A program made the translations under genes and the position numbers. 64,000 nucleotides of DNA from Eutypa lata (taxonomy: Eukaryota > Ascomycota > Sordariomycetes > Xylariales > Diatrypaceae), in the NCBI GenBank assembly GCA_022661535.1, contig JAKULF010000007.1, positions 2,418,001 to 2,482,000 of the forward strand. Direction: 5' to 3'. The notes beneath the pieces are model-generated. The model was not told the origin of the DNA. It saw nothing but the letters and a program-made list of their open reading frames with translations, and made no database searches. Position 1 is the stretch's first letter. Each line of letters starts with the position of its first letter. Shown piece after piece: positions 17,792-64,000 of this stretch.

Positions 17792-17808
17792 GCTTCGATA
17801 GCTCAGTG

Positions 17809-17878
17809 GTAAGTTCTCACACCGAACCAGAAAAAAAAAAGAATTAAGCTTTAGTTCCATTCCTAACAACCCACACAG
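17809..17878 (+). other. spliceosomal-type intron inside the tRNA D-loop
   Basis: This 70-nt insert starts GTAAGT, carries a CTAAC branch motif (A at about 17866) 12 nt before the end, and closes with CACAG, the full set of fungal U2 intron signals. Exact removal restores the consensus D-loop AGTGGTA. It also carries an A10 run. It is not at the canonical 37/38 position and I saw no clear bulge-helix-bulge around its ends. Confidence 0.75.
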
Positions 17879-17897
17879 GTAGAGCGTAGGATTGCAG

Positions 17898-17913
17898 TTC
17901 ATAACACTTTAAA
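17898..17913 (+). other. canonical tRNA intron after position 37
   Basis: Sixteen nucleotides between G37 and A38 of the anticodon loop, the standard place for introns cut by the tRNA splicing endonuclease. Its removal leaves a 7-nt loop. Confidence 0.8.
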
Positions 17914-17956
17914 ATCCCGAGGTCACGCGTTCGACTCGCGTTCGGAGCTGATTTAC

Positions 17957-17974
17957 TTTTTTACCTTTTTTTTT
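17957..17974 (+). terminator. RNA polymerase III T-run terminators
   Basis: A T6 run (17957-17962) and then a T9 run (17966-17974) begin 8 nt after the tRNA end, as expected for Pol III termination. Confidence 0.85.
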
Positions 17975-18149
17975 GGGACTTTTCTTTCCAATTGCAATAT
18001 TATAGGTAAGTAGTTAGTGTACATATGTATCTACTTTTAACCTATGTGGTTTCTTGCAGCCTACGAAATAGTACCCTCAATTATCAAATGACCTATCTGG
18101 GACTACTGCGATATACTTGCATTCTGTAATAGGTAATACCCGAAGCCCA

Positions 18150-19260: not shown

Positions 19261-22200
19261 ATGGACGATCCAGTGGCAGTGATCGGGTTTGCCCTCCGCT
19301 TCCCCGGCGATGCTGTCGACGAAGAATCCTTCTGGAACATCATCGTGCAGGGGAAGTCAACAATGACTGATGTACCAATCAGTCGATACAATATCGACGG
19401 TTTCTGCAGCAAGAACAAGTCTAGTCGTAATACTGTGAGGCACTTCAACGAACGAAGAACAGGGCATTATCAACTAACATGTGAAGCTTAACTGCCGCGG
19501 CGGCCACTTTGTCGAGGGCGACATCTCTGCCTTTGATGCTCCGTTCTTTGCCATGAGCAGCGCTGAGGCCAAAGCAATGGATCCGCAGTTGCGCCTCATG
19601 CTTGAAACTACGTATCATGCTCTAGAATCCGGTAAAATCTAAACTAAAACTAGCTGAATATATGCTAATATTTATCAAAGCGGGTCTTTCCATGGAGTCA
19701 GTCCAAGGCAGTGCTACCTCTGTGTATGTCGGGAATCTCACAGCCGACTACTTATCACTCTTCGGCGATGATGAAGAGGTTCGTTCTTCATATCAGGCAA
19801 CGGGGATGTCAGAAGCAATGCTATCAAATCGTGTTTCTTGGTTCTATGATTTGCGGGGACCAAGTCTCACTCTCGATACTGCATGCTCAAGTAGCTTGGT
19901 GGGACTTCATCTAGGATGTCAGAGTATACTGCAGGGTGAATCAGAAATGGTATGTATGACCTAAATTTAGCTATAAAAACCAAATGACCAACATCGCTAT
20001 AGAGTCTTGTCGGGGGTGTTCGGCTACAGCTCAACCCAGCTATGATGACACTACCATTAGCTCGGCAGAACTTCCTGTCCCCTGACAGCCTTTGCTACAG
20101 CTTCGACGACCGAGCAAATGGATATAGCAGGGGCGAAGGAATCGGAATGGTTATCCTGAAGCCACTCTCTAAGGCCATCGCAGACGGGAATACTATTCGC
20201 GCAGTAATCCGCGGGACATCAAGCAATCAGGACGGCCGCACGCCCTCAATTTCGCAGCCTAGTGCTGAAGCTCAGGCTGATCTTATTCGGAAGGCCTACG
20301 AGGCTGCCGGCCTAGATTTCAAGTCGACACAGTACTTCGAGGCTCATGGTACGGGAACACGGGTAGGTGACCCAATCGAGGCACAAGGAATCAATGCGGT
20401 GTTCTCAAACCATCTGGAGCCGGACAACCCCCTATACATTGGATCGGTCAAGGCCAACATTGGGCATCTTGAGTCCACAGCCGGAGTAGCCAGCGTGATC
20501 AAGGCGGTTCTGGCACTTGAAAATGGAATCATCCCCCCGAATGCCTTACTAAAGAACCTAAATCCAAGTATCCCTGCTGAGGAGTGGCATTTCAATGTGA
20601 GAAGTCTCTGAATTCATTCTCATTCGTGCTCCTTCCTGACACATGTAGTTCCCGACTACTGCCATCCCCTGGCCAAAAGATGGCCAGAGAAGGGCTAGCG
20701 TTAATAGGTGAGTCGGATGAGGTTCCCCCCTATTAGACTAAATTGGATTGACTGACACTGGTACTTACAACAGCTTTGGTGTAGGAGGAACAAATGCCCA
20801 CGTGGTTCTCGATGATGCATTACACTACCTGCAAGATCGAGGATTAAGCGGGATTCATAATACCAAGAGTGATACTCGGGGTAAACTTAGACTGACAAAC
20901 GGTGACTCCGGAAAAAATCATCAGACAAATGGTGCGAGCGTAAACGGCTCCAAAACAAGCCAATTGAAGTATCCTTCCTTGTTGTTCCCTCTATCTGCGG
21001 CTGATGAGGATGGCATCTCGCGGATGGCTACTACGCTTGAAGATCACCTGGTTCGACGTGATGCTACCGCCTTCGAGTATCTGCAAGATCTCGCATTCAC
21101 ATTATCCGATAAACGAGGGCTGCTCCCATGGAAAGGATACGCAATAGGCTCAACCGTCGAGGAGTTAAGAGAAAGCCTTGCTTGCCTACCTAGGAAACCG
21201 GTTCGTATCACACAGGCACCCGAAGTCTACTTTGCTTTCACCGGGCAAGGCGCACAGTGGGCGAATATGGGTATCGAGCTCATGGATCGTTATCAAGTCT
21301 TTCAAGACGCCATGACCTTCGCCAATGAATACTTCTGTTCGTTAGGGTCGCAATGGTCCTTAGTTGGTACGTCTATAAAATACCGTTCCCATGTATCTAG
21401 CTGACACATCAAAGACAAACTGCAAGCAACGGCGCCTACATCCAAAATTGACAGCCCACAGCTGGCGCAGCCACTTTGCACCGCAGTGCAAATTGCACTA
21501 GTCGACTTACTAGTATCATGGGGAATCACCCCGCGAGCTGTTGTTGGCCATTCCTCTGGGGAAATCGCCGCAGCCTATGCCGTGGGAGCTCTGTCCAAAG
21601 CTAGCGCCTTGCGTATTGCCTATTTCCGAGGCGAAGCCGCGACGAAGCTAGCGAACATAGATACCGAGAAAGGGGCGATGCTCGCTGTAGCACTATCGGA
21701 GGCTGATCTTAGCCCTCAACTTGCTGCCGTCACTGGTGATAAGCCGGAGTGTTTGTCATGCGGATGTGTGAACAGCCCTCAGAATACGACAGTGACCGGC
21801 GTGGAGAGTTACATCGATGCTCTTTCGAGGCAACTGACAGAAGCAAAGGTTTTTAATCGCAAACTCAATGTTCCGGTGGCATACCATTCGCGACAGATGC
21901 TCAAGGTTGCTGATGAATATCGAGCAGCCCTTGCTGGGAATATAGAAGCGGGTTCTTCTGACCTGAGGGCCAACTCCATAAGCTTGATATCGTCAGTTAC
22001 AGGCAAACCAGCAAGTTATGAGAGTTTAGCGCAGCCCGACTATTGGATTCAGAACCTTGTTTCCAAAGTTAAGTTCTCTGAAGCTCTCGAGCAGATGTGT
22101 GCGGGTCGAAAGGGCCATGTCCAGAGCGACCTAACGCCTTTGACTTATGTCATTGAGGTCGGACCTCATTCCGCACTTGAACGGCCTATTCGGGAAACAT

Positions 22201-25200
22201 TGAATGATGGGATTGAATTTGCGTATGGAACCGTCCTCCGCCGTAGCATATCCCCTATTGTGACCCTACAGAGCTTGATAGGGGAGCTTTTCGTCAACAA
22301 CCTTCCAATGAAATTGCAATTTTTCAATGAGGATCAGAACATCCACCGACGACCTAAGATGCTCTTAGATCTGCCTTCGTACCCATTCAACCATTCGCGC
22401 TCATACTGGCTGGAGAGCAGACTTTCTCAGAACCGTCGAACGCGGAAGAAACCTCGGCACGATTTCCTGGGGAATCCGTCAGCGGACTGGAATCCTTTGA
22501 AACCAAAATGGCGTTTCACTATTAGGACTTCCGACCTTCCTTGGGCCCTTGATCACAAGGTAGTAACTCCTGCTACCCAGCGTCGCATAACTAGAAAAGC
22601 TAATAACAACGATTAATAGGTTGATGGGATCGTCTTGTATCCGGGTACCGGGTTCTTGGTAATGGTAATCGAAGCTGTCAGGAGTCTCACTGCGGACATA
22701 TCTGGTGTAACCGGCTTCCGAATTAGGGATGTCAATATCCTGAATGCGCTGGTGATACCCACAGATGACGACGGCATCGAGACTCAATTACACATGGATT
22801 CGCACGGCAGCTCACCAAATCAAGGTTTCCAGGCTTGGGACTTCAACATCTATTCAGTATTCCGCGGCGAGTGGAAAGTGCATTGTTCCGGTCAAGTTTT
22901 GGCTGAGATTTCCGAGGCTACAGATCACGTCTCGGAGAAGGAGACAGCAAGCTATGCGCAGTCACTAAGTAGAGACTTGGAAGCATTCTGGGAACGAAAA
23001 TTCACTAGCCATGGTTCCCAGAAGTTCTACAAACACCTGGAACAACAGGGCTACCACTTCGGCGAAAACTTCACCTCACTCCATGATATCAAGGTCATTG
23101 AAAACGAATTGGAAGCCGCTGCCACGGTGAATTTTGGCCATTTCCGGGAGCAAGCGAGACGCGATGAAGTGAGCGAGCATCTCATTCATCCTGCAACGCT
23201 CGACAGCTTGTTCCACGTGATGATAGCGACTCAATATAACGGAGTCACTATGCCTCGAACGGTTCCGATACATCTCTCAGAGGTTTTCGTGTCTCTCGAT
23301 GAACTTGGAGATTCCTCAATGGACACGATGCATCTTCACAGCAAAGTCGTCGAGTGGGGTGCTCTTGGTATAACTGGCAACATCACAGCCATAAGCGGCG
23401 CCACGAGGAAACCTACAGTTACCATGCGCGGTTGTAGGTTCTCGACATTGAAGGCTACCGGGGACCAAAGAGACGTGAACTCAGAGTCGACGCACTTGTT
23501 CCACCACATGCATTGGAAGCCAGATATCAGCTTGCTATCGCGCAGCCAGACCGAGAACTATCTTCGCGACAAGACGAAGGATACAATTTACGATGATGGC
23601 GACATCAGAGCTGAGATCATTTGTCGTCACTACATGTCAGACGCATTCCAAGACACAAGCGACTCAGGCTGGAGCACGAAGCCGCATATGATAAAGTATG
23701 TGAAATGGGCTAGAGACTTCAACACTACTGAGGGTGCCTTCACTGCGGCCTTGATAGAAAAAGAATGGCCCAGTTTTAAAGGTGTCAATACGAGGCCTCG
23801 TCTCATTGATGAATGGGCTAAAAGTGCACCATGGAGGGCCGGCATAGTATTGTTCTGGCAAAACCTGGTTCCAATTCTAAGGGAGGAGGTAGACCCTCTG
23901 GACGTCCTGTTCAACCAAGGTGTGGCAGAGGCCATATACCGAAGTCCTCTTCTCACGATTACAGCCAGCAGACTTGCAGCTTACATTGATCTCGTTGCAC
24001 ACAAGAATTCAGCCATCAACATCCTCGAAGTCGGCGCAGGGACGGGTAGCACCACGAGCTCAGTGCTCGAAACCCTTTACCGCCAGGGGAGGTCTCCAGG
24101 TACTTCTCCGCGCTTCAATCGGTACGACTTCACTGATATATCACCAAGCTTCTTTGCCCAGGCCCAGGAACGATATGCCGAGCACGCGAATAACATGAGG
24201 TTCAAAGTCCTAGACCTCGAGCGCGATCCGGCAGAGCAAGGGTTTGAGCTTGGGTCCTACGATGTTGTCATCGCTGCAGCAGTAAGTTGACCCGAGAGGG
24301 TAATGATGTACACCACAGCTCATGTATCCAGGTTCTTCACGCCACGGCAAGTATTGAGAAGACATTGAGTCATGTCAAAAAGCTCCTAAAACCGTAAGTA
24401 AAAATCTGCTGAATAACGTCGGTAGTTTAAGTAGCTAACAAGCAATCAGGGGCGGCCGACTTGTTTTCTCCGAACCGACCAATCTCGCGATGGCGGCAAC
24501 CTCGGGGATCTTTGGTGTCCTCCCAGGTTGGTGGTTGTGTAAGAAGCCCAATTGCTCTGCGACTTGTATTTTATTACTAATTAAAATAACGTAGCCATTG
24601 AGAATTACAGAACAGATGGACCGTTAATGGACTCAAACGGATGGAATGAAGCCGTCATGCGAGCAGGCTTTGGAGAACTTCAGGTGTCCCTGACTGGCGA
24701 TGTCGGAGACACACATGCGGCTTCTCTACTAGTCACCCGCCTTCAACCACCACTAGAGTCCATCAAGAACATTTCTACAGCAATATTGGTTCAGACACCC
24801 AGTCAACTTGAGCTTTCGCAATCTCTGAAAATGCAGCTTGACTCTAAGGGCAGGGGAAGCTGCGACATCATTACGATGGAATCCCTTGCTGATGTTACAT
24901 CAACATACAGCCACTGCATATCCCTCTTGGAGCTCGAGGAGCCAGTTCTGTCTCGGCTCGACGAGTCCCGTTTTGCCAATTTCCAAGACATCATACGCAA
25001 ATTCAAGCATATCCTATGGGTGAGCACCAACTGTGGGACGCAGGCTGATAGCCCCGAATCGGCCATGATGGCCGGGTTCGCGAAAGCAATGGTGCGCGAG
25101 GATCCAAACGGTAGGATCGTCTACCTCAATGTGAACTCAGCAGGGGATGCTGTTCCAACTATCACGCGGGTCATGGAGCAAATCAGAGAAGTGCCCGGAA

Positions 25201-31435: not shown

Positions 31436-32923
31436 ATGCGGCTACCTAGCACCCTCTTCATCGTGCCATTCGCTCTCGAGTACTACTTATCTCATGCATA
31501 TCCAAACATATCTCAAACATGTTCTACAGTCGGTTTGACGGACCAGCTATCCTCAATAGATGGCCAACTAGCAGCGAATGCCACTATACTCTCGGCTGTC
31601 CCCGTGAAGCTCAATGGTACTTACGGAGACCCTGATCTCCTTCCGGGCCTAGCACTCCCTGAATTATCAACCGGCCTGCCCGAACTCTGCGCCGTGGAGA
31701 TCAACGTGACCTCTTCGGAATCGTCGTCCTACTCCTTATCTCTATTCCTACCGTCCGAATGGAACTCAAAATTACTTACCGTCGGCGGTGGCGGGACCGC
31801 CGGATACATCAACTACCTCGACATGGGTTCTGGCACGCACTATGGCTTCGCGACCATGTCAACCGACAACGGCCATCGAAGTGGCCCCTTCGATGTGGCG
31901 TGGACCTACAAAAGCCCGGAAAAGCAGATCGATTGGGCTTGGCGCGCCATGCACGGGTCTGTGCAGCTTGCGAAGCAGTTGGTAGCCACTTATTACGGTG
32001 AGGACATTCAATACTCGTATTACACTGGTTGTTCGACCGGTGGTCGCCAAGGGCTCAAGGAGGCACAGGTCGATGCCGAAAGTTTTGATGGAATGCTTGT
32101 CGGGGCGCCGGCCTGGTGGATAAGCCACTTGACCAGCTGGGCTACTAGAATGAGCAAGGCATACTATCCCCTGGACGATCCGAAGAGTGTCCCCTCTGCC
32201 TTGCTCGGGCTCATATCTTCGACGGTGGTCGGACAGTGCGACGCGGTTGACGGCGTCGAGGACGGCATCGTCAGCTCGCCCGAGCGCTGCTACCCGGACC
32301 TCGAGGTGCTGAACTGCGACAATGCGGGCGCGAACTCGTCCGCGTGCCTCACGCCGCTCCAGCTGGAGACCCTGCAGAAATTCTACTCCGACTACTACGT
32401 CGGAACCGAGCTCGCCTACCCGGGCTTCGAGCTGTCCTCGGAGAGCGGGTGGGGAAATTTCCTGTGGAACGACACTCCGCTATCCTACGGGCTCGACTAC
32501 CTCAGGAACGCGGTCTTCGAAGACCTAGACTGGCCCCTCGCGGCGTACAACGACAGCGTCTACGCGTACGTCAAGGCGAAGGACCTGGGCCACCCGGAGC
32601 CGGACGACTTCGACATGTCGGCGTATCGGGACAACGGCGGCAAGATCATCATGTACCACGGGATATCGGACCCGCTGATCGTCACGCGGGGCTCGACGTA
32701 CCTGTACGACCAGGTGAAGCTGGCGACGATGGGGGTGGCGCACCCGATCGCCGACTGGTTCAGGTTCTACCTCGTCCCCGGCATGATGCACTGCTTGGGG
32801 ACGGGGGTCAACGCGCCGTGGTACTTCAACGGCGCCAGCCAGAGCTCCCTCCTCGGCTTCGACCAGTACTCGGTGCCCGGTGTTACGGACCGTAGGGACG
32901 CGTATACGAATGCTTCTTCATAA
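31436..32923 (+). CDS. tannase/feruloyl esterase, 3' end replaced by LTR sequence
   Basis: The open frame of 495 codons is a tannase/feruloyl-esterase family protein cut short by a retroelement. It has a secretion-type N-terminus and the family CS-D-HC arrangement: Cys199-Ser200 in GCSTGGRQG, Asp412 in GISDP and His452-Cys453 in MMHC. All catalytic residues are upstream of the break. Family-like sequence stops at YSVPG (codon 482); the last 13 residues and the stop come from the 5' LTR. The missing 70 codons lie intact at 35003-35216. The family acts outside the cell on gallate or ferulate esters of plant material. As it stands, the gene could make a truncated protein that lacks the conserved C-terminal region; folding is doubtful. 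Codon use is GC-rich and not RIP-damaged. Confidence 0.9.
   Translation: MRLPSTLFIVPFALEYYLSHAYPNISQTCSTVGLTDQLSSIDGQLAANATILSAVPVKLNGTYGDPDLLPGLALPELSTGLPELCAVEINVTSSESSSYSLSLFLPSEWNSKLLTVGGGGTAGYINYLDMGSGTHYGFATMSTDNGHRSGPFDVAWTYKSPEKQIDWAWRAMHGSVQLAKQLVATYYGEDIQYSYYTGCSTGGRQGLKEAQVDAESFDGMLVGAPAWWISHLTSWATRMSKAYYPLDDPKSVPSALLGLISSTVVGQCDAVDGVEDGIVSSPERCYPDLEVLNCDNAGANSSACLTPLQLETLQKFYSDYYVGTELAYPGFELSSESGWGNFLWNDTPLSYGLDYLRNAVFEDLDWPLAAYNDSVYAYVKAKDLGHPEPDDFDMSAYRDNGGKIIMYHGISDPLIVTRGSTYLYDQVKLATMGVAHPIADWFRFYLVPGMMHCLGTGVNAPWYFNGASQSSLLGFDQYSVPGVTDRRDAYTNASS
32876..32880 (+). other. target-site duplication, left copy (CCCGG)
   Basis: The five bases just before the TG end of the 5' LTR equal those just after the CA end of the 3' LTR (34998-35002), the 5-bp duplication usual for LTR retroelements. 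Confidence 0.93.
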
Positions 32924-41535: not shown

Positions 41536-41694
41536 TTTTTCCTAACCGCTACGTTCGAAAAAAAAAAGATACGGCCCTCCGCCTGCAAGCAAGCTACGGG
41601 AACCTTTTTTTTTTCTCTCTTCGGGCGGAAAAATTTTGCTGCGCAACAAAAGTTAATATAGCCAGCTTAACCTTTAAAAAACCTTTGACTTATT

Positions 41695-41800
41695 GGGATT
41701 CGAACCCAAAGGCTGCTGTACGTATAGGGCGGTCAAGCTGTCAGAACTGACCGGAGGTCATTTTGTGGCTAAGTCCTGCACCACTATTACGACCTACCCC
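41695..41800 (-). other. tRNA-like remnant with B box
   Basis: The minus strand carries GGGTTCGAATCCC (41695-41707) in a 5-bp T-arm with a proper 7-nt loop, and an A-box-like AGTGGTGCAGG about 75 nt upstream. No complete cloverleaf can be folded. It may be the Pol III head of a SINE or a ruined tRNA gene. Confidence 0.4.
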
Positions 41801-41989: not shown

Positions 41990-42022
41990 CTACAAAAAGT
42001 AAGTTATTTAATTTTATACCTT

Positions 42023-42105
42023 ACTAAGCGGGATTCGAACCCAAGGGCTTCGGATTACAATTACTACATCTACAGATTTAGCCATTACACTACAGGCTCA
42101 TTACA
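42023..42105 (-). other. second tRNA-like remnant with B box
   Basis: The minus strand carries GGGTTCGAATCCC (42030-42042) and, upstream, TAGTGTAATGGCTA, which looks like a tRNA D-arm. The acceptor and D stems do not fold cleanly, so it is a relic or part of a SINE-like repeat, not a working tRNA gene. Confidence 0.4.
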
Positions 42106-42178
42106 CTAATCACATTAAAAACCTACACTTTATCCACCTACATATAGCTAATTCTGAAGGTAGGTAGTTAAAGCTGCC

Positions 42179-47065: not shown

Positions 47066-50000
47066 ATTAATAATAATAAAATAAAAATAAAAATATAATT
47101 ATAATTATATTTTTTAAATGTTTTTTTATTAAGTTAAATAATAAAAAGATTTATTTAATAATTAAATTACGTAATTTATTTATATTCGATTAAATTACTC
47201 GTAAATAATTATCGCGTTAATAAAACGAAAAAAATAAAAATTAAGAATTTTTATTAATTATATAATATATATAATTTTCGTATTTTATATTAATTTTAAA
47301 TAATTTTAATAATTTAATATTATTTAAATTTATTATTATTTTTAAAGTTTTATTTTAATTAACTTTTATAAAAATTAAAAGTTAATAATATTTAATTTAT
47401 TAATAATTAACGAAAAATCGTAAAAATTTAAGTGTTTTATAAAAATTATTACGATTTTTTTACGTAAAAGTAAAAACGAAATTAATCGTTTAATATAATA
47501 AATGTTAATTATAATATTTAATATTAATGTAATTTTTTTAATAATTAAAAAGTTTATTTTTTTATTAAAGTTATTAATTTATTTTTTAATAATTTTAACG
47601 ATTTTATTTTAATTATAAAAAATAAACGTTTTAATTAATCGAATTTTAATAAAAGATTTTTTAATATTAACGATTTTTTTTTAATATAACGAATTTTTTT
47701 TTTATTATAATAAATTCTTTTTTTTATTTTTTAAATTAAATAATAAAATTAATAATATTTTTATTAATTAAGTTTAATTTATTTAAATAATTTTTATTAA
47801 TAATTTTTTTATTAATTTATAAATATTTTTTAATTTGATATTTTTTTATATAACGTGTTTATTTAAAGATTTTAATAAGTAATTATAAATTTTTCGTAAT
47901 TAATATAATATTTACGAAATAAAATGTTTAATTTTTTATATTTTGCGATAATAAAATCGTTAAATATTTTTTTAATAATTTATTAATTTTCGAAATTTTA
48001 ACTTTTTTTATATAAAATAATAATATTATTAATTAATTTTTCGATTTTATTTAATGTTTAATTTACGTATAAATTTAACGAAATTATTTAATTTTTTAAT
48101 TTTTTATATTTATATATTAAAATATTATTATTTTTAATTAAAGTATTAATGTTTTTAAATAATTAAGAAATTTTTTTTTCGTATTTATCGTTTAAAATAA
48201 TAATATAAATATAAATTTTTTTTATAAATTTTTTATTTTATCGATTAAATTATTTATATTATCGTTAAATAATAATTTTTTATTATTTAAAAATAATTTC
48301 GATTTTAATTTAATAATACGATTATTTAAATTTTATTATTTTTTTAAAAGTTTTTATAATTATAATATATTAAAATAATCTTTTAAAATAAAGATATTAT
48401 TTATTATATCGTTAATTTTATTAATTAATTTATTTAAAGATTTTGCTTAAATTTAATTTAAATCGTTTTATTAATTTTAAATTTAATTATTAAATTTTAA
48501 TTTTTAATTTAATATTAATTATAATTTATGTTTTTTTTAATACTTAAAATTTATAATAATTTTTAAAGTTTTCGTATTAAGCTTTAAATATAAATAAAAG
48601 ATTTTAATAAATATATTTAAAACTTTATATTTAAGTAAATTATTAATAATTATTACTTTTTTAATAAAAAATATTTAAATAACTTTTATATTTTTAAGTT
48701 TTAAATATAATATATTTAATTATATATATTAATAAGTTTTTTAATTTATAAAAAAAAATATATTAAAAAAAAGATTATTTTAATATAAAGGTAATTTTTT
48801 ATAAAAGTTTATTAAAAATTATATTTATAAATGTTATTTTTTATTATAATTTATATAATTATTAATAATTTTAATTATATAAATTATTTAATTAAATTAT
48901 AATATATAATTATTTAATTTTTATTTAATTATTATTGTTTTTTTTTATTTAAATTAAAAGCGATTAAATAAAAATTAATATAAATTATTAAATTATTTCG
49001 TTTAATTTAAATTTTAAAATTTTAAACTTTTTAAAATTTAATTTAAAAAATATTTTCGATATAATTAATTAAGTAATTTTTTTTAAAAAATAATAATTTT
49101 TTATTTAAAGTTTTAAAACGAATAATATAAAATGTAATTAATTAATTTATATTAAAAATATAAAGAAAATTATCGTTAATTTTTTTCTTAATTAATTTAA
49201 AATGTTAATATAAATAAAGTATAAGTTTTAATATATATAATTTCTTTTAATTATTAAATACAATAATAATTTAAATTCGTTTTTTATTATTTAAATAAAT
49301 TATATTTATTTTAATAATAAAAATTACGATGTTAATTTTCTTTAATTTTATAAGTATTAATATTGTTTTTTTAAAAAATATTTTAAATAATAAAATCGTT
49401 AAATTAATAAAAATTTTATAAATTTTAATTTTTACGATTTAAATAATTAATATTAATTACTTAAAAGTTAAATATTTAAAAAATTAAAAGTTAATTATTA
49501 AAAAAGTAAAATTAAAAAGAATTAATTAAAAAAAAAAGTTATAAAAAGTTAAATTATTAAAAAAATTATTAAAAATAAATTAATTATTAAATAAAATTAA
49601 TAAAATAAACGCGTTAATAAAAATATAAAAAAGTATATAATTTTTAAAAGGTATTTTTTTATATATTAATTATTTATTTTTTTAAATTCTTTTAATAATA
49701 TCGAATAAAAATTAATAAAATAATTATAAGAAAATAATAATAATATAAAAAAATATAATTAAAAAACCTTAATATTTATTATTTCGATTTTTTATTTATT
49801 ACTTTTATTTTTTAATTAAAGATTACCTTTTAACTTTTTAATTTAAAGCTTAAAGTTAACTTTTTTTTTTTTTATTTAAATACGAAATATTTAAATTTAT
49901 CGTTTTTATTAATATTTTTTTTATTTGTTTTATAATTATATTTCTTCGTTAATATATAATATTAAGTAAAATATTTTATTTAAAACGTTTAAAATTATTA

Positions 50001-53000
50001 ATATAAACTTTACGAAGTTTATTTTTTTTAATAAAATTAATAACTTTTATTAAAACATTAAATATAATTTAATATATCTTTAATAACTTAATTTAAATAA
50101 ATAATAATTTTAAAACTTTAAAATCGTTATTTAAATTAAACTTAAATTTATTTCTTTAAAATTATTATATTCGTTAATTTTAATTTTTAATATATTTTTA
50201 TATTTAATCTTTTTTTAATATTTATATATAATGCTTAAACCTTAATATATATTTTTATTTATTAAAAATCTTCGTATCGTTAATTTATATTTTTCCCGTT
50301 AATTAATATATTTTTTTTTTATTAAATTTATTAATAATAATTATCGAATTATCGGAATTTAAAATCTTAATTATAAATCTTATCTTTTAATTAAATATAA
50401 CTTATAAAAACAATAAATTATAATTTTTTATTACTTATAAGTTAATTTTAATAAATATTTTAAATAAAACATTAAGTTATTAATTTAATTCTTTATATTT
50501 AACATTAAATATTTACTTATATAATTAAATAATAATTAATTTAATTATTTTTTTAATTATTTTATAAAATTATTTTAAGTAAATTAAATTATAAATAAAT
50601 TTCGATTTTTAATAATTAAAAAATGCTTTAATTAAAAAATACTTAAAATAATTATTATTATTAATATATACTTATTAAAAGCATTTAAAAATATTATATA
50701 AAAATTTTTAAAACTTAAAAATATTAAATTAAAATGCTTTATTAATTGTTATTTTAAATGTAAATCGAGTAAAATAATCGATTATTATTAATATATATTT
50801 AATTTTATTTATTTTAACGAAAACGAAAAGGTTTATAAAATTTATATTAATTAAATTTTATAACTTTATCGAAATTATTTATTTTAATTTAACGATTAAA
50901 AAAAGTTTCGATTTAATTTTATTATATATATAACAGCGTTAATAATGCTTAATAATATTTAAATATTATATAAACTATTAAAAGTTATAAATTAAATTTT
51001 TTAAAATAATTATTATAATATAATAATTATATTTATTATATATTTATAAAAAAGTTAAATTAATTTTATTAAATAAAATATATTTTATTATATTATTATT
51101 ATTTTTTAATTAAAATAAAAAGTTATTAATAATATAATATTTAATTATATCTTTAATAAATAAACGTTATTAATTAATAATAAACTATTTAATAAATTTA
51201 AATTTTAAAATTAAATAATAAATTAAATCGTTATATTATTTAATTTTTATATATAACTTTATAAATAACTTAAAAATTCGTTTAACTTTTATTATATTAA
51301 TTATAAAATTATTATTATTTAATAATTTAAAAAAAAATAATATATAAATTAATTAAAAATTAAATTAATTAAAAAACTTCTTTTAAATTTATTTTATAAT
51401 TAATATAATAAAAAAAAGCTTTTTAATATTAAATCTAATAATTAATTAATAAATAAATTCGATTAATTTCGAAAATTCGTTTATAATTTTAATAATTTTA
51501 ATAATATTTAATTTATAATAAATAATAAATTAATATTTACTTAATCTTTTAATTTAAATAAAAAATTTTTTACGTATATTTACTTTTATATTAAATACTT
51601 AAAAAAAGTTTAAATAATTAATATATAATATAATAAAATAAAGTAATTTAATTATTATTTATTTATATTTAACGAAGTATTTTATAATTCTTAAAGCTTT
51701 TTTCTTTTTAATAATATATTTAGTTTTTATATTTAAAAATTTAAATAAAAAAAACATTAAAATATTAATTAAAAACATTAACGTATTTATTATAACGGTT
51801 TTTATTAATTAATTAATAAATTAAAAAAGAATTTTTCTCGTTTTTATTAATAATATATTAATCGTTAAATAATATTATTAATTAATATTTAAATTTTTAA
51901 TAACTCGCTTTTAAATTTCATAATATATAATAATAAATACTTACTTTTAAACCTTTTTTTAAAAAAAAAGTTTTAAAATAACTTTTTATTACATTAATTT
52001 CTTTTTAAAAAAAATCTCTTTTTAAATAAACTTAATATAAACGTTTTTAAAAATTTTAATAAAATTTATATAATTAAATATATAAATACGTAAATAAAAA
52101 ATTAAATAAAGAAATTTCTTTAACTTTTTTTAATTCTTAAAATAATTTTCGATCGAAAATTAATTTTTAAATTAATTTTAATATTTACTTAATAATTAAA
52201 TCTTTTTTTAAAAAAGTTTAAATCTTAAAGCTTTAATCGAATCCGTAAATAAAAAATTTTTCTTAAATATTATATTAATAAATATAAAATTTAAACGAAG
52301 AAAATAATAATAATAAAAAAAATCAAATATTTTATTAAAACTTTTAACGAAAATATTATAATCGTTAATAAATACATTAAAAAAAATACCTTAATCGAAA
52401 TTATAATTCATTAATATAAATAATATCGATCTTTAAATTTTCGCTTTATTAAATAATAATTATTCTTTAAATTTTAAATTACTTAAAATATAATACATAT
52501 ACGTTAATTTAATTATTTCTTATAACATTTAAATATTAAAACTAATAAATAAAGTTTTAAATTAATTAATCTTTTAAATATTAATTAATTAATATTTATA
52601 AAAAGCATTACTTTAATTAAAAATTTTATATTTCTTTTAAAATAAAATATTAAATATATTATTTCGATTATAAATCAATTATTAAAGTTTAATCGTAACG
52701 AAATTAATTAATTTATAATTTTAAACGATTTAACGATTTTTATTTTTCTTTAACGAAAATTAAAAATATACATTTTATTTATTTAACTTTAAATATATAA
52801 ATTTAACTTTTTTTATTTAAAAGTAAACTTTATTAATAAACTTTTTTTTATTAAAAGTATATTTAAGTTATTTTAATTAAAAAAGCTTAATACTTTTATT
52901 AATAATAATAAAATATTCGATTAAATTTATACTTTAAATATTATTAAACGATTTAATAAAATAATCATATTAAATATAATATAATCGTTTAATTAAAACT

Positions 53001-56000
53001 TATCTTTTTAATATATTTATTATTAATTTAATAATAATTTCGAATTTATTAAATTAATCGTTAATTATAAATTAAAAGTTATTTAATAAAGATTTTTATT
53101 ATAATTTTCGATTTATAATTAATTATTTCGAATTTACTTAAATTATAATTCGAGATTAAAAATTATAATAAAATATTTAATAATAATTTTATAAAAATAA
53201 ATTTATAACTTTAATTTATATAAATTTAAATTTATATTAATTATACGTAATATTTTTCTTTTATTTTTTTAAATAAAGTTTAAAACTTTTTTTAAAGCTT
53301 TTATTATATAATATAATATTAAAAATTAACATTTTATTATTAACATTATTTAAAATTAAATTAATTTTATTTTAATTATTAATAATATTTATAAGAAAAT
53401 ATAATAATATAAAAAGTAAATTTATTATTAATTTTATTTAACGTAAAATTTTTAAATTTTAAATAAAATAATCGAAATTATAATATATAATATAAAGAAT
53501 AAAAAATAAAAATAAATTATTATTAAAAGAAATTATTAACGTTTTTTTTATTAACGATTTTAATTTTAAATTAAAAAAAATAATTAAAAAAAATTCATTA
53601 AATTTATTTTTTAATATATAAAAAAAAGTGCTTAAATAAATATTTAAATTTAATCGTTAACATTTAAATATAAATTAAAAATTCGATTTATAATTTATAA
53701 ATTTATTTTTAATAAATTTCGTTTAATAAAAAAAAATATAATAAAAGTAATAATATAACGATTTATTTTTTTTTTAAATTAAAAAATTAAAGATAAAAAA
53801 TTAACGATATAAAAAAATTCGAAATAATAATAATAAATTTAATAAATATAATTCGTTTTAATCAAGTTTAAATAATAATATTATAAGTTATAAAGTTATA
53901 ATTTATAAAAGCTTAACTTTATTTTAAGCTTTTTTTTAATTTTTTAATTAAATTTAACGTTTTCGATTTTATATAATAATATATTCGACGATATTAAATA
54001 ATTTCTTTATTAACTTACGATAATATTTATTTATTTTTTAAACTTTAAATCGTTATTATTTAAAAGATTATTATTTTTTACGTTAAATAACTTTAAATTT
54101 ACATTTTTTATAAAAATTAATTAAATTACTTTTTTATAAATCGATTTCTTTTTTATTAAAATTAAATTAATTATAATCGTAAATTTTATCGAAAAAATAT
54201 AAGATTATTTATTAATTTTAATAAAAATAAAGTATTTAATTTTAAAATTAATATCGGCGAAATTTCGTTATAATTAACTTTTATTTAATAATAAATCGTA
54301 AAACTTATTTATATTTATAATAAAAACTTTAATTATCGATAAAATCTTATTAATAATAAAGAGAAAAACTACGTAATAATTAATTAAAAAAATATTATTA
54401 TCGGTTATTTTTAACTTATATTTTTTTTAAAATTTAAGCTTTTTAAATCTTAATTTAATAATAACATTAAAATTAATTAATTTTAATAAAGATTTATAAT
54501 TAATAAAACATTTACGTATAAATATATCGTTTATTTTCTTATTAATAAATTCGAAAAAGATTTAATTATTATTATTTTTAATTCGATTAATAAAATTAAA
54601 CTTATTTATATTAATATATATATAAACAAAATATAATATAAATATTAAAAAACGATATTTCGATAATACTTTAAATTTATATTTCTTTATAAACAATTTA
54701 AATTACTTGTTAAATTAAACTTTTATAATCGAATTTTAATTTAAAAATTATTTTTAAATAATATTTAAAAAAAAAATTATACGAAATAAATTACTTATAT
54801 TAATTTAATCTTTAACGTAATTTTTATATATATAAATCGAAATTATATCGCTTTATTTTTATAATTTTATAATCTTTTTATATATATAAAATTTAACATT
54901 TATTAAACGTTATATAAAATCGTTTATATTTATAAAATTAAAATTAAAAAAATTAATTTTTTTTAATTTAAATAATAATTTATAAAAATTTATAAAATTA
55001 TATTAAAACTTAATTAATAAATTAAACGAAAAAAATCGTTAATTTAAAATAAATTTTTGCCGAAATATACTTTTATTTTTATTAATATTTATATATAAAA
55101 AAAATATTATAAATTAAATCTTTTATATAAACTTAATAATGAAAAAAAATAACGATTTTTTAATAACATTTAATAATTTTTTATTTAAATTATTTATATA
55201 TTTATTTAAATTAAAAAATTCTTATAACTTTTTTTTAATTATATAATTAATTTTTATATTAATTAATTTTAATACTTTTTTAAACTTTAATAATTTCGAA
55301 ATTAATTTATTACGATTATAAATATTTCGAATTTAATAAATAATTTAAAATAATTAATTTAAATGTAAATAATTAAAAAATACGTATCTTTTATAACTAT
55401 AATTATAATATACGAAAATAAAGTATGTTTTATTTTTATAATTATTAAAATTATATTAAACTTATTAAATAAAAAAAACAATTATACTTTTTTAATTAAA
55501 AAAACTTAAACTTTATTAATTGCCGTTTTATTTACTTTGTTAATTAATTTATTACGCTTATATATTTATTAAAAATATTTAAACCGAATATATTTATTAT
55601 AATAATTAATATATTTATTCGTTATATTAAATATTTAAAATAAATATAAATTTAAAAATCTTTAATAATAAAATAATCGAAATTTAAAATTATTAACTTC
55701 TTTATATAATTAAAACTATTTTATTTTTTTTATTTCTTTAATTATTATTTTTAATTTATAAATTATATTTTTAATTATTAATTTAATTTCTTTAATATAT
55801 TTTTTAACTTTATTAATAAAACTATTTTTTTAATTTAATATTATTTTATAAAAAATAATAATATCTTTTATATTATAAAACGTATAACGTTTATTTATTT
55901 CATTAATATTATTAATTTTATTTTTAATAAATAAATAATTAATAACTTTATTTTATAAAATTTTATTTTTATAATTTTCATTTAAATATATATATTTATA

Positions 56001-57419
56001 CATTTAATTTCGAAGCTTTATTAATTAATAATCGTTAACTTTTTAAAAAAACTTATTAATTTATTTTATAAAAATAAAAAGCTTTTTTTTTAATTAACGT
56101 TTAAAATTATTAATCTTTAAAACGAATTTAATATCGTTCGTTTTTATTTAAATAAAAAATCTTTTATTAAAATTAAATTTTAAGAAATTATATTTTACTC
56201 GCTTAAATTTAAAAAATTATAAATATTAAAATTTTATATTATTTCGTAAATTATTTTTAAATAAAAAACAAAACTTAATTTCTTTAATTTCTTCCTTTAT
56301 TATAAAATTTAATTCCTTTATATATAACTTTAAATTATTAATATACTTTTTAAAAAATTTCCTTAAAAATCTTTTAAATATAAATTAATTTATTTTAATA
56401 ATAAATAATTTAAAAATTAATAAAATATTATTAAAAATTAATATAAAAATTAATAAAACTATTAATTCGAAAATTAATTTTAAAAAATTAATAAATTAAA
56501 TCGTTAATTCGAAAATAATTAAAATACTTTCGTACTTTTTAACTGCTTATATAAACTTTTTAACCTTAATTAAATACTTTAAAGTAACGTATAATACTTT
56601 AATTAAAATCGTTTTAAATTTAAAATTTACGACGAAAATTATAATATATATAAAAAGAAAAATAATAATTTATAAAATTACTTAAATAATTAATAATTCG
56701 ATTTATAATAATTAATAATTATAATTTTCCTTAATTAAAAAATAAAAAACATTAAATTATTTTAATAAAAATAAAATAAATAATAATATAAAATAAATAA
56801 ATAAAAGTTTTTAAAGGTAATTATATCGATTTAATATATAAATAAAGCAAAAAGTATTATATAAATTTAAAATAATATAAATTAATATTAAAAAAAAAAA
56901 CCTAAATTAAAAATTTAATTTTTACTTATAATAAATACGTTTTATTTTAAAAAAAAAGAATTTTCTTAACATTTTTTTGTTTTTTAAATCGTAATAATTA
57001 AATATATAAATAACTTTTAATTATTATAAAATAATAAATTTTTTAATAAAAAAACAAAAAAATAAATAAATATAACTTTCGATTAATTTAAAATATAAGT
57101 TAATTTAATTAATTAAAAAAATCGTATAAAACTAAAGAATTTAATACAAAAATAAAAACGATAATTTTAATATTTCTTTAAGCAATTAAAAAGCAATTAA
57201 AACATAAGTATTTTATTTAATTTTTAAATAACAAAATAAATTCTTAAAGTAATTCGTAAAATTTAATTATTTAAATTTCACTTTTATTATTAATAAAAAT
57301 ATTAATAATAATAAAATAAAAATAAAAGTGTAATTATAATTGTATTTTTTAAGTGTTTTTTTATTAAGTTAAATAATAAAAAGATTTATTTAATAACCAA
57401 ATTACGTAATTTATTTATA
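47066..57419. repeat. long RIP-ruined repeat, copy A
   Basis: A block of about 10.35 kb that begins and ends with the same 118-bp sequence (47066-47183 and 57301-57419) in direct orientation, like a retroelement with short LTRs. Its first 6.2 kb align with copy B. It keeps more CpT and CpA sites than copy B. Confidence 0.7.
57301..57419. repeat. terminal direct repeat closing copy A
   Basis: It matches 47066-47183 and 57784-57900 and is the least mutated of the three (it keeps GTGTAA, AAGTG and AACC where the others have A or T). It is followed by about 365 bp of spacer before copy B. Confidence 0.75.
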
Positions 57420-57783
57420 AAATTTAATTAATTATTAAAAATATATAACGTATAATGGTTATAATTTAAAGTAATATAATTAATTAATTTTAAAATTAAC
57501 ATTATATAATTAAAAATAACGCTTTATTTTTTGCGTTAATAAGTTATATTAAATATTTAATATATAAAGTTAATTCGATTATTAATTATTTATTACGATA
57601 TTAAATAACATTTCGTAAATGTATTATATAAAGTAATATAAAACGATTAGTTTTCGAGCTAATAACGTTTTTACTTTTAATAATATAATAATAACCTTTA
57701 TATTTATATCGTTATATTATTATATATTAACTAATAAGTAAATATTATATAACTCTTTTTTAATCTTTATAAAGCTTAAAAGT

Positions 57784-60700
57784 ATTATAATAATAAAATA
57801 AAAATAAAAATATAATTATAATTATATTTTTAAATATTTTTTTATTAAGTTAAATAATAAAAAAATTTATTTAATAATTAAATTACGTAATTTATTTATA
57901 TTTAATTAAATTATTTATTAATAATTATTATATTAATAAAATAAAAAAATAAAAATTAAAGATTTTTATTAATTATATAATATATATAATTTTTATAATT
58001 TATATTAATTTTAAATAATTTTAATAATTTAATATTATTCGAATTTATTATTATTTTTAAAGTTTTATTTTAATTAATTTTTATAAAAATTAAAAATTAA
58101 TAATATTTAATTTATTAATAATTAACGAAAGATTATAAAAATTTAAATATTTTATAAAAGTTATTACGATTTTTTTATATAAAAATAAAAACGAAATCGA
58201 TTTTTTAATATAATAAATATTTATTATAATATTTAATATTAATGTAATTTTTTAATAATTAAAGATTTTATTTTTTATTAAAATTATTAATTCGTTTTTT
58301 AATAATTTTAACGATTTTATTTTAATTATAAAAAATAAACGTTTTAATTAATTAAATCTTAATAAAAGATTTTTTAATATTAACGATTTCTTTATAATAT
58401 AATAAATTTCTTTTATTTTTTAAATTAAATAATAAAATTAATAATATTTTTATTAATTAAGTTTAATTTATTTAAATAATTTTTATTAATAATTTTCTAA
58501 TTTAATATTTTTTTATATAACGTATTTATTTAAAGATTTTAATAAATAATTATAAAATTTTCGTAATTAATAAAATATTCGTAAAATAAAGTATTTAATT
58601 TATTATATTTTATAATAATAAAATTATTAAATGTTTTTTTAATAATTCGTTAATTTTCGAAATTTTAATTTTTTTTATATAAAATAATAATATTATTAAT
58701 TAATTTTTCGATTTTATTTAATATTTAATTTACGTATAAATTTAACGAAATTTTTTAATTTTTTAATTTTTTATATTTATATATTAAAATATTATTATTT
58801 TTTAATTAAAATATTAATATTTTCGAATAATTAAAAAAATTTCTTTTCGTATTTATTATTTAAAATAATAATATAAATACGAATTTTTTTTATAAATTTC
58901 TTTATTTTATTAATTAAGTTATTTATATTATTATTAAATAATAATTTTTTTTCGTTTAATAATAATTTCGATTTTAATTTAATAATATAATCGTTTAACT
59001 TTTATTATTTTATTAAAAGTTTTTATAATTATAACGTAATAAAATAATTTTTAAAATAAAAATATTATTTATTTCATCGTTAATTTTATTAATTAATTTA
59101 TTTAAAAAATTTATTTAAATTTAATTTAAATCGTTTTATAAATTTTAAACTTAATTATTAAATTTTAATTTTTAATTTAATATTAATTTTTAATTTAATT
59201 TTAATTACGATTTATATTTTTTTAATATTTAAAATTCGTAATTATTTTTAAAGTTTTTATATTAAATTTTAAATATAAATAAAGAATTTTAATAAATATA
59301 TTTATAATTTTATATTTAAATTAATAATTAATAATTATTATTTTTTTTTTAATAAAAAATATTTAAATAATTTTCGTATTTTTAAATTTTAAATATAATA
59401 TATTTAATTATATATATTAATAAACTTTTTAATTTATAAAAAAAAATATATTATAAAAAACTATTATTTTAATATAAAAGTAATTTTTTATAAAAATTTA
59501 TTAAATTTATATTTATAAATATTATTTTTTATTATAATTTATATAATTATTAATAATTTTATTTATATAAATTATTTAATTAAATTATAATATATAATTA
59601 TTTAATTTTTATTTAATTATTATCGTTTTTTTTATTTAAATTAAAAGCGATTAAATAAAAATTAATATTAATTATTAAATTATATCGTTAAATTTAAATT
59701 ATAAAATTTTAAACTTTTCGAAATTTAATTTAAAAAATACTTTTAATATAATTAATTAAGTAATTTTTTTTAAAAAATAATAATTTTTTATTTAAAGTTT
59801 TAAAACGAATAATATAAAATGTAATTAATTAATTTATATTAAAAATATAAAAAAGATTATTATTAATTTTTTTTTAATTATTTTAAAATATTAATATAAA
59901 TAAAATATAAGCTTTAATGTTTATAATTCTTTTTAATTATTAAGGATAATAATAATTTAAATTTATTTTTCGTTATTTAAATAAATTATATTTATTTTAA
60001 TAATAAAAAATATAATATTAATTTTTTTTAATTTCGTAAACGTTAATATTATTTTTTTAAAAAGTATTTTAAATAATAAAATCGTTAAAGTAATAAAGAT
60101 TTTATAAGTTTTAATTTTTATAATTTAAATAATTAATATTAATTATTTAAAAATTAAATATTTAAAAAATTAAAAGTTAATTATTAAAAAAATAAAATTA
60201 AAAAGAATTAATTAAAAAAATAAAAGTTATAAAAAGTTAAATTATTAAAAAGATTATTAAAGATAAATTAATTATTAAATAAAATTAATAAAATAAGCGT
60301 ATTAATAATAATTTAAAAAAGTATATAATTCTTTTTAAAAAGTATTTTTTATATATTAATTATTCGTTTTTTTAAAGTTTTTTTAATAATATTAATTAAA
60401 AATTAATAAAAAAAATATAAAAAAAATAATAATAATATAAGAAAATATAATTAAATAACCTTAATATTTATTATTTTAATTTTTTATTTATCGTTTTTAT
60501 TTTTTAATTAAAGATTATTTTTTAATTTTTTAATTTAAAGTTTAAAATTAATTTTTTTTAAAATACGAAATATTTAAGTTAATTATTTTTATTAATATTT
60601 TCTTTATTCGTTTCGTAATTTTATTTTTTTATTAATATATAATATTAAATGAAATATTTTATTTAAAATGTTTAAAGTTATTAATATAAATTTTATAAAG

Positions 60701-63700
60701 TTTTTTTTTTAATAAAGTTAATAATTTTTATTAAAATATTAAATATAATTTAATATATTTTTAATAATTTAATTTAAATAAATAATAATTTATTGTTTCG
60801 AAATTATTATATTTATTAATTATAATTTTTAATATATTTTTATATTTATTTTTTTTTTAATATTTATATATAATATTTAAATTTTAATATATATTTTTAT
60901 TTATTAAAAATCTTTATATTATTAATTTATACTTTTTTCGTTTATTAATATATGTTTTTTTATTAAATTTATTAATAATAATTATTAAATCGTTATAATT
61001 TAAAATTTTAATTATAAGTTTTATTTTTTAATTAAATATAATTTATAAAAATAATAAGTTATAATTTTTTATTATTCGTAAATTAATTTTAATAAATATT
61101 TTAAATAAAGTATTAAATTATTAATTTAATTCTTTATATTTAATATTAAATATTTATTTATATAATTAAATAATAATTAATTTATTTATTTTTTCGATTA
61201 TTTCGTAAAATTATTTTAAATAAATCGAATTATAAATAAATTTCGAGTTTTAATAATTAAAATATATTTTAATTAAAAGATATTTAAAATAATTATTATT
61301 ATTAATATATATTTATCGAAAATATTTAAAAATATTATATAAAAGTTTTGAAAATTTAAAAACGTTAAATTAAAATATTTTATTAATTATTATTTTAAAT
61401 ATAAATCGAGTAAAATAATCGGTTATTATTAATATATATTTAACTTTATTTATTTTAATAAAAATAAAAAAGCTTATAAAATTATATTAATTAAGTTTTA
61501 TAACTTTATTAAAATTATTTATTTTAATTTAACGATTAAAAAAAATTCGATTTAATTTCGTTATATATATAATAACGTTAATAATGTTTAATAATACTTA
61601 AATATCGTATAAATTATTAAAAGTTATAAATTAAACTTTTTTAAAATAATTATTATAATATAATAATTATATTTATTATATATTTATAAAAAAATTAAAT
61701 TAATTTTATTAAATAAAATATATTTTATTTCATTATTATTTTTTTAATCGAAATAAAAAGTTATTAATAATATAATATTTAATTATATTTTTAATAAATA
61801 AATATTATTAATTAATAATAAATTATTTAATAAATTTAAATTTTAAAATTAAATAACGAATTAAATTATTATATTATTTAATCTTTATATATAACTTTAT
61901 AAATATTTTAAAAATTCATTTAATTTTTATTATATTAATTATAAAATTATTATTATTTAATAATTCGAAAAAAAAAATATATAAATTAATTAAAAATTAA
62001 ATTAATTAAAAAGATTTTTTTAAATTTTTTTTATAATTAATATAATAAAGAAAAACTTTTTAATATTAAATTTAATAATGAATTAATAAATAAATTCGAT
62101 TAATTTCGAAAATTCATTTATAATTTTAATAATTTTAATAATATTTAATTTATAATAAATAATAAATTAATATTTATTTAATTTTTTAATTTAAATAAAA
62201 GTTTTTTTACGTATATTTATTTTTATATTAAATATTTAAAAAAATGATTTAAATAATCGATATATAATATAATAAAATAAAGTAATTTAATTATTATTTA
62301 TTTATATTTAATTAAATATTTAATAATTTTTAAAGTTTTTTTTAATAATATATTTAATTTTTATATTTAAAAATTTAAATAAAAAAATATTAAAATATTA
62401 ATTATAAATATTAACGTATTTATTATAATGGTTTTTATTAATTAATCGATAAATTAAAAAGGAATTTTTTTTTATTAACGATATATTAATTATTAAATAA
62501 TATTATTAATTAATATTTAAATTTTTAATAATTTATTTTTAAATTTTATAATATATAATAATAAATGTTTATTTTTAAGCTTTTTTTTAAGAAAAAAGTT
62601 TTAAAATAATTTTTCGTTATATTAATTATTTTTAAAAAAAAGACTTTTAAATAAATTTAATATAAACGTTTTTAAAAGTTTTAATAAAATTTATATAATT
62701 AAATATATAAATACGTAAATAAAAGGTTAAATAAAAAGATTTTTTTAATTTCTTTTCATTTTTAAAATAATTTTCGATTAAGAATTAATTTTTAAATTAA
62801 TTTTAATATTTATTTAATAATTAAATTTTTTTTAAAAAAGTTTAAATTTTAAAACTTTAATTAAATTTATAAATAAAAAAGTTTTTTTTAAATATTATAT
62901 TAATAAATATAAAATTTAAATAAGAAAAATAATAATAATAAAAAAATTAAATATTTAATTTAAACTTTTAACGAAAATGTTATAATTATTAATAAATACG
63001 TTAAAAAAATATTTTAATTAAAATAATAATTTATTAATATAAATAATATTAATTTTTAAATTTTTATTTTATTAAATAATAATTATTTTTTAAATTTTAA
63101 ATTATTTAAAATATAATACGTATATATTAATTTAAATCTTTTTTACGGCATTTAAATATTAAATTATTAATTATTAAAATTAAAAAATAAAATTTTAAAT
63201 TAATTAATTTTTTAAATATTAATTAATTAATATTTATAAAAAATATTATTTTAATTAAAGATTTTATATTTTTTAAATTTAAAATCTTAAATATATTATT
63301 TTAATTATAAATTAATTATTAAAATTTAATTATAACGAAGTTAATTAATCGATAATTTTAAACGATTTAATGATTTTTATTTTTTTTAATAAAAATTAAA
63401 AGTATATATTTTATTTATTTAATTTTAAATATATAAATTTAATTTTTTTATTTAAAAATAAATTTTATTAATAAACTTTTTTTTTTAAAAATATATTTAA
63501 ATTATTTTAATCGAAAAAATTTAATGTTTTTATTAATAATAATAAAATATTTAATTAAATTTATATTTTAAATATCGTTAAACGATTTAATAAAATAATC
63601 GTATTAAGTATAATATAATCGTTTAATTAAAATATTTTTTTTTAATATATTTATTATTAATTTAATAATAATTTCGAATTTATTAAATTAATCGTTAATT

Positions 63701-64000
63701 ATAAATTAAAAATTATTTAATAAAGATTTTTATTATAATTTTTAATTTTTAATTAATCGTTTTAAATTTATTTAAATTATAATTTAAAATTAAAAAGTTA
63801 TAATAAAAAATTTAATAATAATTTTATAAAAATAAATTTATAATTTTAATTTATATAAATTTAAATTTATATTAATTATATATAATATTTTCTTTTTATT
63901 TTTTAAATAAAATTTAAAACTTTTTTTAAAACTTTTATTATATAATATAATATTAAAAGTTAATATTTTATTATTAATATCGTTTAAAATTAAATTAATT
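57784..64000. repeat. long RIP-ruined repeat, copy B (cut by the window edge)
   Basis: It starts with the 118-bp sequence (57784-57900) and follows copy A in order with an offset of 10.72 kb at its start and about 10.64 kb near 62 kb, the shift being small indels. It is more fully converted to A/T than copy A. The last bases of the window correspond to about 53.3 kb. Confidence 0.75.

Follow-up and report, generated by a model that had tools for sequence, protein, structure and literature searches.

A nuclear tRNA-Cys(GCA) gene can be read directly in three exon pieces (17, 19, and 36 nt) at positions 17792–17949 of the window, i.e., the whole 64,000-nt stretch of DNA that was analysed. With both of its inserts the gene is 158 nt long, while the mature form has 72 nt, and it sits within a 4.19-Mb contig of a 54.5-Mb genome in 29 contigs. 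The features of the locus, all on the plus strand, are the following.

17792–17808, +: tRNA-Cys exon 1, positions 1–18 (acceptor 5' strand, D-stem 5' strand, and D-loop to G18)
17799–17809, +: Pol III A box, TAGCTCAGTGG, whose final G is also the insert's first base
17809–17878, +: 70-nt GT-AG insert between G18 and G19 of the D-loop (a repeated GGTA leaves the boundary ambiguous; the phase given is the GT-AG one)
17809–17814, +: GTAAGT, 5' splice-site-like
17863–17867, +: CTAAC, branch-site-like, 11 nt before the insert end
17876–17878, +: CAG, 3' splice-site-like
17879–17897, +: tRNA-Cys exon 2, G19 to G37, with the anticodon GCA at 17894–17896
17898–17913, +: 16-nt insert at 37/38
17914–17949, +: tRNA-Cys exon 3, position 38 to T73 (T73 at 17949)
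17929–17937, +: Pol III B box, GTTCGACTC
17957–17974, +: Pol III terminator-like T6 and T9 runs (T6 from 17957, T9 from 17966)
18006–18059, +: GTAAGT...TTGCAG intron-like stretch of 54 nt, in which no CTRAY branch motif is visible by eye

The A and B boxes were assigned by their consensus, and all three Pol III elements (A box, B box, and T-run terminator) are present. With the first G of the insert taking the place of G19, the A box remains whole in the DNA; 119 bp separate its end from the start of the B box. No run of four or more T occurs inside the 158-nt gene, and the T6 and T9 runs start 8 and 17 bases after T73, respectively. An earlier first-pass annotation had listed intact A and B boxes, T73, T-run terminators, and a 16-nt intron at 37/38; the former were all found, and the latter is the insert at 17898–17913, read after G37. 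According to PMC3978253, 37/38 is the ordinary site of nuclear tRNA introns.

As for automatic detection, ARAGORN reports nothing on the intact 17792–17949; on the sequence lacking the 70-nt insert it calls tRNA-Cys(gca), as it does on the 72-nt fully spliced form. The Rfam tRNA model has no match to the intact stretch even at E 10, and whole-window scans with Rfam (gathering scores) and ARAGORN (no intron option) yield zero tRNAs. Blank window scans are the expected outcome, since the insert breaks the tRNA model. A covariance model, R1, was of a different design: it was built from ten other tRNAs of the genome after a random 58-nt intron-like sequence had been placed in the D-loop of each, with the window gene left out of the training set and the other tRNA-Cys gene included. 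R1 scores the window gene at 55.8 bits (E 3e-13), and the next best place in the window at 16.7 bits. With the inserts removed, the cloverleaf has a GCA anticodon, T73, and 20 of 21 stem pairs standard, the remaining one being A-C.

Signals within the D-loop insert

The 70-nt insert reads GTAAGT...CCTAAC followed by 11 nt ending in CACAG, with the branch A 12 nt from the end. The first-pass description of this unit (70 nt at 18/19, starting with GTAAGT, with CTAAC 12 nt before its end, and closing with CACAG) is thus confirmed to the base. GT-AG ends, the 5' splice consensus, and a branch motif 11 nt from the acceptor are those of a U2-type intron, for which PMC5832005 gives a range of 6–36 nt between branch motif and acceptor.

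GGTA flanks the insert on both sides, and five different 70-nt removals give an identical D-loop, one of them being the GT-AG unit. The earlier statement that exact removal restores the D-loop therefore holds as far as the restoration goes; however, as the repeated GGTA permits five restoring removals, exact removal alone is weaker evidence than had been claimed. Among 2,000,000 random inserts of local composition placed between fixed GGTA repeats, 27% have GT...AG in some phase, which makes GT-AG alone weak evidence as well. Among such random inserts, GTRNGT, CTRAY, and YAG are combined in 2,515 of 2,000,000, and GTAAGT, CTAAC, and CAG in 55 of 2,500,000. Regarding natural sequence, GTAAGT-CTAAC-CAG elements number 2 in 253,596 strand-bases from 42 other loci of the genome, a count that can only be inflated by the choice of 35 of these loci with patterns ending in a GT..GT-like word. 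Positions 1–48000 of the window (96,000 strand-bases) hold 3 such elements, namely the tRNA insert itself, one at 24394 within a polyketide-synthase-like gene, and a minus-strand one at 40254.

A search of the genome with the insert at E up to 10, in which very common words are skipped, gives the insert itself as the sole match. In this search, several similar genomic copies, as an introner-like family would have, were not seen, and membership of the insert in a mobile or introner family was rejected.

The second tRNA-Cys gene and the tRNA census

Counting the tRNA-Cys genes, which the first-pass annotation had proposed, gave by pattern search the window gene and one other nuclear gene (G000:C18:468325-468414, minus strand). 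The latter has a 37/38 insert, 18 nt by the ends chosen, and an uninterrupted D-loop; ARAGORN calls a tRNA there without naming the anticodon, and the Cys reading rests on GCA and T73. The wider of two tRNA-Cys patterns, which misses 37/38 introns longer than about 30 nt, found 4 places (3 in the control), 2 of which are the tRNA-Cys genes, and a narrower one requiring unbroken GTGGTAG and TTGCA found 0.

The existence of this second gene bears on the main rival of our reading, namely that the window gene is a silenced tRNA-Cys: its D-loop was hit by an intron-like insert, tRNA production ceased, and there has been too little time for decay. We judge this possible, though doubtful. The uninterrupted gene lies on another contig and could serve all Cys codons, and the two-sided GGTA repeat could be an insertion footprint. 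However, the insert bears strict splice and branch signals, and the gene is otherwise undamaged and followed by T-run terminators. The first-pass annotation had itself offered a silenced copy hit by an intron-like element as an alternative; the D-loop-uninterrupted tRNA-Cys speaks for it, whereas no second copy of the insert, and hence no mobile element family, was seen in the genome search described above.

Comparison of the two genes also counts against silencing. Their mature forms differ at 19 of 72 positions, 3 of which are unpaired, and the other 16 make up 8 stem pairs changed on both sides; one-sided pair changes are absent. Six of the 8 changed pairs are standard in both genes; the other two, one pair apart, are A-C here versus C-G in the second gene and T-G here versus G-A there. 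Because the stem changes are two-sided, two long-separate working tRNAs fit better than the decay of a fresh copy, and the window gene would be better described as a diverged tRNA than as a fresh dead copy. Such compensatory changes, however, do not date the insert and may predate it.

Folding points the other way. The A-C mismatch of the window gene is located in the anticodon stem, and the best RNAfold structure of its mature form is not the cloverleaf (−24.2 versus −21.0 kcal/mol for the cloverleaf), both of which are in line with a silenced gene. For the second tRNA-Cys, the best fold is the cloverleaf minus one pair, with the same energy as the full one (−23.6). Folding of the intact 158-nt gene is no more stable than that of its shuffles (z −0.62).

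Further D-loop inserts were sought with two A-box patterns, TRGYNYARTGGTANGT (15 places, 10 in the reversed control) and TRGYNNARYGGTRWGT (31 places, control 27), giving 36 distinct places together. Apart from the window gene, which is one of the 36, no D-loop insert of the same kind was found among them. When R1 was applied to all 36, the window gene (55.8 bits) was followed by L048 (22.4 bits, E 0.0004), L041 (15.1), and L077 (14.7). L048 was rejected as a second case for having no T-loop motif within 300 nt, and L041 likewise. L042 (G000:C6:3855299-3855314, 12.6 bits) was rejected as an ordinary-length tRNA-like stretch without a D-loop insert; with an A box, a T-arm motif, 3 of 5 T-stem pairs, and 5 of 7 acceptor pairs, it is perhaps a decayed tRNA. 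With a 3'-half pattern, 7 places were obtained (5 in the control), again with no second D-loop insert, the best R1 match among them being L103 (14.5 bits, E 0.01), away from the pattern site. The patterns span the 18/19 position and common D-loops only, and more cases may exist.

The tRNA family search, which is blind to D-loop inserts, has at least 65 matches in the genome (63 of 1,970 candidates scored). Of these, 29 were taken as nuclear, and ARAGORN reads a tRNA gene in all 29. The remaining matches comprise 4 that are weak and AT-rich and 32 on contigs 3, 19, 23, and 25, whose clustered arrangement looks mitochondrial by eye. Runs of tRNA matches with near-identical spacing recur on contigs 3, 23, and 25, as though the assembly contained several pieces or copies of mitochondrial DNA. 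An exact 20-mer of the window gene, compared with viral contigs, hits two ordinary tRNA genes (tRNA-Phe and tRNA-Ile), and an exact 25-mer has no match in a collection of genome contigs.

U6 and other structured RNA genes of the same genome

U6 snRNA is essential. Its family search (47 of 2,960 candidates scored) has one match in the genome, of 64.7 bits, on the minus strand at G000:C1:1132945-1133057 (L052), and no other at E up to 0.001. The match reads GATACAG/GTTAGT...TTCTAAC, followed by 10 nt ending in AAACAG/AGAAGATTAG, with an insert of 55 nt. This insert interrupts the conserved ACAGAGA region of U6, and its removal gives GATACAGAGAAGATTAGC. It also contains ATTCGATTC, which is close to a tRNA B box; the title of a reference in PMC10484740 describes a B-box match within U6 introns of Schizosaccharomyces, and U6 is named there as a Pol III product.

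Following CTAAC, the U6 insert has 10 nt and the tRNA insert 11 nt. Local similarity between the two inserts is confined to the branch region and is equalled in 182 of 500 shuffles. Since U6 is made by Pol III, is essential, and bears an insert, one Pol III transcript is very likely processed by the spliceosome of this fungus already.

Pol III genes of the genome are not all interrupted, as the SRP RNA match covers the full length of its model (296 bases versus 293 model positions) with no evident intron. The RNase P RNA family has 0 matches in the genome and likewise 0 in the controls, which makes this result uninformative. In the U3 snoRNA match (L053, G000:C11:1989593-1989888, minus strand), GCTAACC...AAACAG stands just before ACTTCAGAG and may mark where a U3 intron ends.

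Surroundings, processing, and significance

Downstream of the tRNA gene, on its strand, lies a polyketide-synthase-like frame (named by eye from the translation) with its first ATG-start near 19261. Joining of open frames gives 8 candidate introns in this stretch, some of them mutually alternative, in which CTAAC, CTAAT, or CTGAT precedes the end by 10 to 24 nt. The one closest to the tRNA insert is 24394–24449, which has GTAAGT...CTAAC followed by 10 nt with CAG. Elsewhere in the window, a tannase-like protein is encoded at 31436–32923. In a search with it (the best 120 of 993 matches, drawn from the 7,996 best candidates), 11 of the top 12 matches carry names, and these all belong to Hypoxylon, Annulohypoxylon, Daldinia, or Durotheca, with Hypoxylon sp. 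NC0597 first at 71% identity. By this one protein, the DNA would come from a filamentous fungus that is probably Hypoxylon-like, of the Hypoxylaceae. Two tRNA-like stretches on the minus strand, 41685–41760 and 42020–42121, have GGGTTCGAATCCC T-arms beside GTAGGTCT-like repeats (16.7 and 13.5 bits with R1, respectively) and are perhaps tRNA-derived repeats. Positions 48001–64000 form a 16-kb block of only 5 to 9% G+C, compared with about 35% in the preceding 8 kb and about 50% in much of the rest, and may perhaps be a heavily mutated repeat block or a centromere.

These surroundings matter for the second rival, according to which the insert is a spliceosomal intron of an overlapping Pol II RNA, either an lncRNA or a long 5' leader of the polyketide-synthase-like gene, and its splicing yields no tRNA. 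The frame begins about 1.3 kb downstream on the same strand, and the second GTAAGT...TTGCAG stretch, at 18006–18059, starts 128 bases past the insert. The latter stretch, however, has no CTRAY motif by eye, T6 and T9 runs follow the tRNA, and a leader would have no need of a D-loop restored by removal of the GT-AG unit, all of which makes such a transcript improbable as the explanation.

An ectopic tRNA intron cut by the tRNA endonuclease through a bulge-helix-bulge (BHB), as in Cyanidioschyzon merolae, is very improbable. Nuclear tRNAs of that alga do have extra D-arm introns besides those at 37/38, similar in place to the window insert (PMC9602550; PMC3978253), and these are described as BHB-type (PMC3978253). 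In the window gene, by contrast, the strict form of the motif (two 3-nt bulges around a 4-bp central helix), the only form searched for, is found at the junctions in 0 of 5 phases, so an endonuclease-only route is unlikely; moreover, this route requires neither GT-AG ends nor a branch motif. Assembly error or chance has hardly any claim, for although a single assembly underlies the locus, the unit is precise, matches only itself, and lies inside the 4.19-Mb contig, and the strict anatomy has a chance of about 2 in 100,000.

The reading that we prefer, with a probability of about 0.5, is a tRNA-Cys(GCA) gene, likely transcribed by Pol III, from whose transcript the spliceosome is predicted to take out the D-loop insert and the tRNA splicing endonuclease the 37/38 insert. 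It is an even bet that this is the first nuclear tRNA with a precursor that needs two splicing machines, the spliceosome for the D-loop and the tRNA endonuclease for 37/38. The spliceosomal-type intron in a Pol III tRNA gene put forward by the first-pass annotation is partly supported, by the anatomy of the insert, the lack of a strict BHB, the compensatory stems, and the same-type insert in U6, and is tempered by the possibility of silencing that the D-loop-uninterrupted tRNA-Cys leaves.

Judging from the sequence, transcription would be by Pol III and driven by the internal promoter; excision of the GU-AG unit by the spliceosome would restore the D-loop, and the tRNA endonuclease would then cut the 37/38 intron. 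The spliceosomal step is placed first because the endonuclease probably grips the folded tRNA by its D-arm and acceptor stem, both of which the subunit Sen54 probably touches (PMC3978253). The mature tRNA would presumably function as such, cysteine charging included. The insert may have arisen by reverse splicing, as proposed for U6, or by an insertion that repeated GGTA. Position 18/19 matters, since an insert starting with G leaves the A box whole there.

Among known systems, the U6 introns of Schizosaccharomyces pombe and other fungi resemble the window insert in that GT-AG ends and a branch motif occur in a small structured Pol III RNA. Canzler in 2016 reportedly found repeated gain of such introns in fungi. 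U6, however, is a component of the spliceosome, with its intron near the catalytic nucleotides (PMC10484740). Introns of fungal U3 snoRNA are, like the window insert, ordinary GT-AG introns in a structured RNA gene. U3 and U6 are the only small structured RNAs known as often interrupted according to a 2017 survey, which does not name tRNA at that point (PMC5832005). Lichen-fungal rDNA likewise has spliceosomal introns outside protein genes, removed from rRNA (PMC8527467). Unlike the window gene, the host there is rRNA, neither a Pol III transcript nor a tRNA. Ribosomal RNA is a Pol I transcript. Among the titles and openings of abstracts in the literature covered, no report of a spliceosomal intron in a nuclear tRNA gene was found.

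The intron would be ordinary, and the host RNA new. Unlike U6, a tRNA does not belong to the spliceosome, and it has an internal promoter. In the textbook separation, the spliceosome serves Pol II transcripts and the endonuclease serves tRNA. If the preferred reading is true, the spliceosome would accept a Pol III transcript besides its own U6, tRNA would join U6 and U3 among the structured RNAs that host spliceosomal introns, and one tRNA would depend on spliceosome activity for its level. It would also follow that an intron can settle within a Pol III promoter without destroying it. The presence of introns in U6 has been explained by nearness to the catalytic nucleotides (PMC10484740). This account does not fit a tRNA, and the window gene, if the reading holds, would provide a natural test of intron gain in non-coding genes.
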